A DNA stretch of 64,000 nt from Candidatus Saccharimonadota bacterium (GTDB taxonomy: Bacteria; Patescibacteriota; Saccharimonadia; Saccharimonadales; UBA4665). Positions 13,209 to 15,150 of the stretch are shown one piece after another. A program made the position numbers and the translations under genes. The notes under the pieces are model-generated. The model was not told where the DNA came from. It made no database searches and saw only the letters and a program-made list of their open reading frames with translations. Each line of letters opens with the position of its first letter. Within the stretch, counting starts at the first letter, position 1. The DNA lies in assembly GCA_024635495.1 (NCBI GenBank), contig JAGXIT010000004.1, positions 248,001 to 312,000 on the forward strand. Reading direction: 5' to 3'.

Positions 13209-13826
13209 TTAGCGTGAGTAGTACTCTACGATTAGTTGTTCTTTAATCTCCGGCTCAGCGTCTTCGCGGACCGGAAGGTTGGTAATCTTAACTTGTATTT
13301 TCTTGCGTTCGACAGCCAACCAGGTTGGAACTGTGCTCGGAGCTGGGCTTACATCATCAAGCTTCTTGAAGTACTCATTTGTCTTGCTGTGTTCGCGGAG
13401 CTCAAAACTGTCACCGATACGTAATCGGATTGATGGGATGTCGACACGGCGACCGTTTAGCATAAAGTGACCGTGGGTCACTAGCTGTCGGGCAGCTCGG
13501 CGACTTGTCGCAAAACCAGCGCGGTAAACAGCATTGTCTAAGCGGCGCTCAAGGTACTGTAGCAATGTTGAGCCAGATTGACCTGGCGTGCGTGATGCTT
13601 CAGCCATGAGGTTGCTGAATTGCTTCTCGAGCAAACCATACAAACGCTTAACTTTTTGCTTCTCACGAAGTTGCAATGAATACTGACTTGGCTTGTTGCG
13701 CATACGGCTGTTGGCAGCTTGGCCAGGCATAGTTGTACGCTTCGCAAGTGCTTTGTGAGCCTTAGGGTGAAGGGCATAACCTTCACGCCGTGACATTTTG
13801 ACGATAGATTGTGTATCTCGTGCCAT
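13209..13826 (-). CDS. rpsD: 30S ribosomal protein S4 (uS4), cysteine-free
   Basis: S4 (205 residues) is a primary 16S rRNA-binding protein at the 5' domain. In E. coli it also represses its own alpha operon by binding the leader mRNA. The S4 domain is clear (LERRLDNAVYRAGFATSRRAARQLVTHGH, about residues 88-116). The N-terminal region MSRREGYALHPKAHKALAKR has no cysteines, so the zinc knuckle found in some S4 proteins is absent. It lies 2 bases after rpsK. Possible autoregulation is discussed at the rpmJ leader. Confidence 0.98.
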   Translation of the reverse strand: MARDTQSIVKMSRREGYALHPKAHKALAKRTTMPGQAANSRMRNKPSQYSLQLREKQKVKRLYGLLEKQFSNLMAEASRTPGQSGSTLLQYLERRLDNAVYRAGFATSRRAARQLVTHGHFMLNGRRVDIPSIRLRIGDSFELREHSKTNEYFKKLDDVSPAPSTVPTWLAVERKKIQVKITNLPVREDAEPEIKEQLIVEYYSR

Positions 13827-14624: not shown

Positions 14625-14741
14625 CTAACCCTGCCTTTGCTTATGCTTTGGCTTAAATTTATTGATAACATAAACACGCCCCTTGCGACGGACGATTTTA
14701 TCGTCGGGACTGATTTTTTTAACGCTTGCACGTACTTTCAT
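14625..14741 (-). CDS. rpmJ: 50S ribosomal protein L36 (bL36), cysteine-free form
   Basis: This 38-residue protein, too short for most ORF cut-offs, reads [15 protein letters not shown] near the start and ends [11 protein letters not shown]36 binds 23S rRNA near the factor-binding region. Standard L36 carries a Cys3-His or Cys4 zinc site (CxxC...C...H); here no cysteine remains ([19 protein letters not shown]), so this is the zinc-independent form. The start is supported by AAGGAG about 12 bases upstream and by position between infA and rpsM. A 140-base leader with competing inverted repeats precedes it. Confidence 0.93.
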
Positions 14742-14881
14742 GTACGGATCATGCTCCTTCCAGCGATGACTCACTGCTTAATAATTGATAGATTGTCGGC
14801 CGAACACTCCCTTGGATTGATCCGTACTTCGATACATCATAACTAGAGTATCAGTCCGGATGAATCAATCCGAAGGAAAGT
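14742..14881 (-). promoter_or_regulatory. Leader of the alpha operon with competing inverted repeats
   Basis: Three segments can pair in two ways. Segment A, TGATCCGTAC on the mRNA (14742-14751), lies between the Shine-Dalgarno AAGGAG and the rpmJ ATG. Segment B (14812-14827) contains GTACGGATCA, perfectly complementary to A over 10 bases. Segment C (14856-14873) contains GGATTGAT, which can pair with ATCAATCC of B. A -10-like TATGAT (14836-14841) lies between C and B. This is the layout of a translational switch; in E. coli S4 controls this operon through such a leader. Confidence 0.55.
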
Positions 14882-15103
14882 TCAGCCTTTTCGGTACGTT
14901 ATACGACCTTTTGTGAGGTCGTAAGGAGTTAACTCCACCGTAACCTTGTCACCAGGCACGATACGAATAAAATATTTCCGCATCTTACCAGCGACATGCG
15001 CAATAATTCGATGACCATTTTCAAGTTCTACTCGAAATTGAGCCCCTGGTAGGGTCTCGACGATAACGCCTGTTAATTCGATTACTTCTTTACTACTCGC
15101 CAT
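14882..15103 (-). CDS. infA: Translation initiation factor IF-1
   Basis: IF-1 (73 residues) binds the 30S A site and helps IF-2 and IF-3 select the initiator tRNA. The OB-fold sequence is complete: [19 protein letters not shown] at the start, [14 protein letters not shown] in the middle and [10 protein letters not shown] at the end. It has its own strong promoter and lies between secY and rpmJ. adk and map, often found between secY and infA, are absent here. Confidence 0.98.
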
Positions 15104-15120
15104 AATTACAACGTCAAGTG

Positions 15121-15150
15121 ATTATAGCAGTTTTTACTACGAGTTGTAAA
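15121..15150 (-). promoter_or_regulatory. Promoter of infA
   Basis: TTTACA (15145-15150), an 18-base spacer and a perfect TATAAT (15121-15126), with an extended TGC directly before the -10 box, on the minus strand. It sits between the secY stop and infA and may drive the whole alpha operon. Confidence 0.8.

Follow-up and report, generated by a model that had tools for sequence, protein, structure and literature searches.

The window, by which we mean the whole stretch of 64,000 nucleotides that was analysed, sits in an 820-kb genome of the Saccharibacteria, bacteria with minimal genomes in which regulation has been little studied; its close relatives are Candidatus Saccharibacteria MAGs. The genes of interest are on the minus strand in the order secY - infA - rpmJ - rpsM - rpsK - rpsD - rpoA - rplQ - rplM, and the same order, including the position of rpsD, is found in the relatives checked. 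The landmarks are as follows.

15121..15150, minus strand: promoter-like TTTACA-18-TATAAT before infA, a pattern match only
15103-14882, minus strand: infA
14625..14741, minus strand: rpmJ (L36), the first gene under the element described below (PF00444, 70.6 bits)
13209..13826, minus strand: rpsD (S4), in the same operon and the proposed source of the ligand, an open reading frame named from its sequence and operon position

With regard to the start of rpmJ, the conserved AUG at 14741 appears to fit better than a GTG codon at window position 14774 (minus strand), as the relatives agree better with it. The GTG is in frame with rpmJ and could add 11 residues to the protein.

The spacer between infA and rpmJ is 140 nt long, and for it the initial annotation had proposed a switch in which a segment B pairs either with segment A, just before the rpmJ start, or with segment C. 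The parts concerned are these.

14871-14864, minus strand: segment C, GGATTGAT
14827-14814, minus strand: segment B, GTACGGATCA(ATCC), also given as GTACGGATCAATCC
14761-14754, minus strand: Shine-Dalgarno sequence GGAAGGAG, read from the sequence and lying in the P2 loop of the element below
14751-14742, minus strand: segment A, TGATCCGTAC, between the Shine-Dalgarno sequence and the rpmJ ATG
14798..14887, minus strand: long hairpin that starts from the infA stop codon and holds the C:B pairing; it has covarying pairs

The complementarities were described correctly, with 10 of 10 perfect pairs for A:B on the minus strand and 8 of 8 for C:B, and segment A does occupy the gap from the Shine-Dalgarno sequence (14761-14754) to the ATG (14741-14739). 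The longest perfect inverted repeat of the spacer is one of 10 bp, a length reached in 16 of 2000 dinucleotide shuffles (about 0.8%), which is unusual but not decisive. With its flanks the spacer folds at -58 kcal/mol (z = -5.07), and none of 200 shuffles is as stable; this stability is due to the long hairpin at 14887-14798, which contains C:B and not A:B. The promoter-like site before infA is a strong one, with 11 of 12 consensus matches and a TG ahead of the -10 in the promoter scan, which is again a matter of pattern only, and the ordinary transcript would thus contain segment C.

Comparison of the infA-rpmJ spacers of relatives, picked by means of the rpmJ protein and regardless of their leaders, reveals a different structure, a three-way junction that overlaps the rpmJ start and was found as a pattern in 46 of 50 loci, counting that of the window. 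Its parts in the window are listed here.

14728..14777, minus strand: core of the three-way junction P1-P2-P3, from model match, conservation and covariation
14775..14777, minus strand: P1 5' strand, GCA, invariant in 96 sequences
14766..14770, minus strand: P2 5' strand, GUCAU, with double changes in 4 of 5 pairs
14748..14752, minus strand: P2 3' strand, AUGAU, overlapping segment A, with covariation
14742..14746, minus strand: P3 5' strand, CGUAC, the end of segment A, which covaries with rpmJ codon 3
14739..14741, minus strand: rpmJ start codon, located in the loop of P3 in the window's genus and inside the helix of P3 in most other lineages
14731..14735, minus strand: P3 3' strand, GUACG, rpmJ codons 3-4, supported by covariation and codon choice
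14728..14730, minus strand: P1 3' strand, UGC, rpmJ codons 4-5, invariant

The common pattern before rpmJ is GCAGUGNGUCAU - variable - AUGAUCCGN - AUG AAA GUN CGU GC, in which P3 has the general form CG-N-AU / GU-N-CG around the start codon, and a Shine-Dalgarno-like word is in the P2 loop in essentially all of 111 distinct sequences. RNAalifold recovers the identical 13 pairs, and our model R1 matches the window at 14718-14781 with 70.9 bits (E 3.5e-18). The claim that rpmJ, and with it the alpha operon, begins with a structured, conserved leader is therefore borne out; as to its extent, the conserved element lies partly inside the interval first given for it, 14742-14881, which misses the 3' part that runs into rpmJ to 14728. 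A hairpin GCAGUG/CAUUGC that competes with P2 in several single-sequence folds was considered and dropped, being present in 20 of 111 sequences as against 16.3 in shuffles and so not conserved.

Within the class, about 75 of 295 genomes carry the element, and they belong to 19 families or more; 73 of them score no less than 40 bits, and the other two, L003 and L121, are divergent. All sampled genomes of the window's family are among the carriers. There is one site per genome, at rpmJ, and the element consistently precedes ribosomal-protein genes. Where the matching records are named, their titles read Saccharibacteria, Saccharimonadia, Patescibacteria or an unspecific 'bacterium'. It is absent from a large family of the same order (f26; L084, L088-L095), and 287 genomes from across the phylum gave no true match beyond the order. 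Weak model matches of about 20-35 bits do occur, both in f26 and in other parts of the phylum, and those inspected were the rpmJ coding start or unrelated sites with no leader. The f26 loci have a mostly plain, short spacer, and their rpmJ codon 3 is mostly GTT. Lineages lacking the element have the identical operon order.

The most informative variants are those in which the Shine-Dalgarno sequence has moved from P2 to an enlarged P3 loop (L046, L009, L116, L117, L119 and L120). P2 still pairs after this shift, for example as CCCAGC/GCUGGG in L046, and so does P3, as CCGG/GUCCG in L117 and L120; judged by these sequences it is the fold, and not the position of the Shine-Dalgarno sequence, that selection keeps. 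In L118 and L121 the element lies ahead of a small reading frame that starts in or at P3 and has its stop near or overlapping the rpmJ start, an arrangement that suggests translational coupling of the small frame to rpmJ.

The strongest evidence for the fold comes from one pair of P3, in which a leader base (non-coding, position -1) faces the wobble base of Val codon 3 of rpmJ. A pattern scan of one genome per species in 84,980 species, with N at both of these positions, gave among the matches listed at least 78 C-G, 23 U-A and 2 G-C combinations, together with at least 6 in which UAC goes with A and 2 in which UAC goes with G, and no mismatch in at least 111 distinct sequences. In 161 distinct genes the variable pair is C-G in 107, U-A in 47, G-C in 5 and the wobble pair U-G in 2, again with no mismatch. 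On a quick tree of the infA-rpmJ-rpsM proteins the pair has changed at least 23 times; this tree is weakly resolved and has only 6 independent contrasts on well-supported branches, of which on average 5.7 go in the predicted direction and none in the opposite one. In 96 sequences there are 59 double-change cells as against 13.7 in shuffles, and the signal collapses in controls in which the strands are slid. P2 pairs 3 and 5-7 exceed shuffles. The three core P1 pairs never vary, so that support for P1 comes mainly from a weak fourth pair, which covaries (34 canonical as against 21.9 in shuffles, 0 of 10000). Alignment A4 was fitted to the model and hence leans its way; the N/N pattern scan and the pair shuffle tests are independent of it. 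A conserved secondary structure supported by covariation, as looked for in ribosomal-protein leaders, is thus present.

Codon usage tells the same story. Codon 3 of rpmJ is GTG in 109 of the 161 genes. Among the Val codons of eight neighbouring genes GTG is used least (15 of 125) and GTT most. GTT at codon 3 never occurs with the element and is found in 8 of 17 genes that are without it. The choice of codon in rpmJ follows the RNA structure. The 3' strands are partly coding and several pairs are invariant, as would be expected if the conservation were an artefact of constraint on rpmJ coding and the Shine-Dalgarno sequence alone, but that constraint does not account for covariation without exception between the -1 base and the codon 3 wobble base, for the frequent GTT in element-free genes, or for the failure of the slid and shuffled controls, and we give this explanation practically no credence.

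The proposed A/B/C switch fares little better. It holds that B alternates between A (closed) and C (open), aided by a C-less transcript that an internal promoter would yield, and in its favour A:B is perfect over 10 bp in the window and several genus mates, a repeat of that length being rare by chance. But in the seven genomes of the genus and one neighbour there is not one compensatory change for A:B, and the pairing is broken or weakened in three of them: G001 has segment A altered in a way that keeps P2 (GUCGU/ACGAU), G004 has segment B altered with C:B retained, and G014 lacks the A extension. In the same eight genomes compensatory changes are present for C:B, with one pair A-U in 4 and G-C in 4. 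The absence of compensatory changes in homologous leaders had been named beforehand as the finding that would speak against the proposal; that is what we see for A:B, and the separate three-way junction passes the same test strongly. When the transcript is full-length, A:B costs 2.6-13 kcal/mol and its probability is about 0. Only in a transcript without C would it form, and then in most genomes, with P of about 0.69-0.99 in the six that have 9-10 pairs. The internal -10 box that this transcript requires is not conserved: there is a TATGAT-like hexamer near 14841, between C and B as described, which is unscored by the promoter scan and absent from relatives. Segment A is made up of the P2 3' strand and the P3 5' strand, and its conserved partners are thus GUCAU (14770-14766) and rpmJ codons 3-4 (14735-14731) and not B. 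Both A and B are accounted for by conserved local helices of their own, and with energies, covariation and the -10 box all contrary, mutually exclusive pairing of B is very improbable.

Sequence comparison thus demonstrates the structure, position and lineage range of the element. We think it likely that the rpmJ start in many lineages of this order of Saccharibacteria is a conserved cis-acting three-way-junction RNA that serves as translational operator of rpmJ-rpsM-rpsK-rpsD-rpoA-rplQ, probably an on/off switch of the type with which other bacteria keep their ribosomal components in balance. For the element alone the mean predicted pair probabilities are 0.20 for P1, 0.50 for P2 and 0.56 for P3, with the rpmJ AUG unpaired 36% of the time, and in these predictions it is moderately stable and by itself metastable, which would suit an operator stabilised by a protein. 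The folded element, probably held by protein, would block or trap initiation at rpmJ, and through translational coupling the downstream rpsM-rpsK-rpsD-rpoA-rplQ would be lowered too; with little ligand present, the metastable fold would open and the operon be translated. If the ligand is S4, its excess would bind the junction and keep the start codon region in P3, and S4-dependent protection would be expected at GCAGUGNGU and UCCG.

For the ligand we followed Eckert and Weinberg (PMC7247131), whose heuristic is itself uncertain. S4 is favoured since it is the repeatedly established leader ligand among the products of this operon and since rpsD is downstream in all 56 testable loci, at no more than 2.6 kb. 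The S4 gene is thus inside the regulated operon, and it is plausible, as first suggested, that the leader is functionally analogous to those controlled by S4. Lineages without the element have the same operon order, and co-occurrence therefore does not indicate S4 control. By operon logic we would put S4 specifically at about even chances. The rpmJ start has words in common with the 16S rRNA, but not above chance, with 7 shared 8-mers as against 4.5 expected, and the local alignment is unremarkable. No mimicry of the 16S rRNA was found by this comparison, although its h45 in the window's genome (AUCCGUAC-GGGAAC-GUGCGGAU, L256) resembles the A and B strands. Among known S4 leaders, mimicry of rRNA is not a requirement (PMC7247131).

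A leader for another of the local proteins, L36, S13, S11, L17 or IF1 (whose gene is just upstream), is one way in which S4 could be the wrong choice: the element is directly on rpmJ, the candidate genes all flank it, and assignment of ligands in multi-gene operons is uncertain (PMC7247131). Against this, S4 is, among the products of the operon's genes, the confirmed leader ligand in Gammaproteobacteria and Firmicutes (PMC7247131), L17 leaders have been predicted for single rplQ genes, and no L36 leader was found in the literature searched, and we see these other ligands as unlikely, if the most serious competitors. Less probable again is that no protein is involved, and that the fold acts as a temperature sensor, sets basal rpmJ initiation with respect to infA, or links rpmJ to infA translation. 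A fold that is metastable alone, that has the Shine-Dalgarno sequence and AUG within it in most lineages and that has infA directly upstream could work in this way, but the invariance of the junction (GCAGNGNGU, UCCG) goes beyond what pairing needs, and the junction is preserved when the Shine-Dalgarno sequence leaves P2, both of which suggest a recognised shape.

With regard to known systems, we found no Rfam match in this region of the window, and none to RF00140 up to E 5; in 17 related loci there was nothing but one sub-threshold RF00140 match, in L003 at 1565-1653 near the rpmJ-rpsM junction, with 22 bits against a cut-off of 38, which may be chance. Membership of RF00140 (Alpha_RBS) was thus rejected, there being no covariance-model match and the structure being a nested three-way junction at rpmJ and not a pseudoknot at rpsM. 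There is a likeness to the gammaproteobacterial alpha operon leader of that family in that both are structured RNAs placed where the ribosome binds and the first gene begins, in an operon for S13, S11, S4, alpha and L17, with translational control, which for the Saccharibacteria is our proposal. In E. coli, however, it is a pseudoknot before rpsM at which S4 acts by entrapment (PMC10931766), whereas the Saccharibacteria junction is before and within rpmJ.

The S4 leaders that Eckert and Weinberg (2020, PMC7247131) predicted in Clostridia, Fusobacteriales, Bacteroidia and Flavobacteria are likewise covarying leaders of alpha-operon segments, the regulated run in Clostridia and Fusobacteriales being rpsM-rpsK-rpsD-rpoA-rplQ, but those precede rpsM or rpsD and ours precedes rpmJ, a distinction drawn from the descriptions. 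The motif of Fusobacteriales has GUAA in common with rRNA and that of Clostridia contains GAAA (PMC7247131); in our element the Met-Lys codons also dictate the GAAA. Among S15 leaders, those with a three-stem junction provide a precedent, in some lineages, for a junction fold recognised by a ribosomal protein (PMC7247131), but rpsO is not in this operon and there is no Rfam match. In Bacillus S4 represses translation of rpsD through an untranslated leader (PMC10931766), but there the leader acts on a separate rpsD and here rpsD is inside the operon, with the element on rpmJ.

On structure and position the element is most likely a ribosomal-protein leader, with protein binding as a prediction. 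It is undescribed in Rfam 15 and in the literature searched (subscription journals and supplements being outside the search), in which no ribosomal-protein leader has been described for Saccharibacteria. What is unusual among such leaders is that the element is written into the opening codons of rpmJ. We incline to the opinion that this is an undescribed class of leader in the Candidate Phyla Radiation with its binding site partly in the first five rpmJ codons, so that the start of L36 is dual-coded and synonymous codons are fixed by pairing, with the junction kept while the Shine-Dalgarno sequence shifts between loops, and preceding in two genomes a small frame that is possibly coupled to rpmJ. 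The near-perfect covariation gives a defined RNA for testing. If S4 binds, this would be one more structurally unrelated S4 operator, and alpha-operon autoregulation would be seen to reach the Candidate Phyla Radiation. With a hairpin at the start codon that dictates synonymous codons, the element also bears on codon usage and on start-site prediction in these genomes.

The C:B hairpin is present in all seven genus genomes and the neighbour G014, solely at this locus. Of the 46 pairs predicted for the 8-sequence leader alignment, 12 have double changes, pairs of the three-way junction among them, and both C:B and the outer stem covary. We infer that the hairpin is a genus-level addition, perhaps a stability or processing hairpin or an accessory binding site, and not half of a switch. 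Other long imperfect hairpins (60-220 nt) are found directly after infA in about a quarter of element-bearing loci (L022, L023, L025, L038, L059, L063, L070, L080, L101, L112 and L163). Those tested had no match in Rfam, and several share a GCACAU..CGGG / CCCA.GCUGUAC-like pattern.
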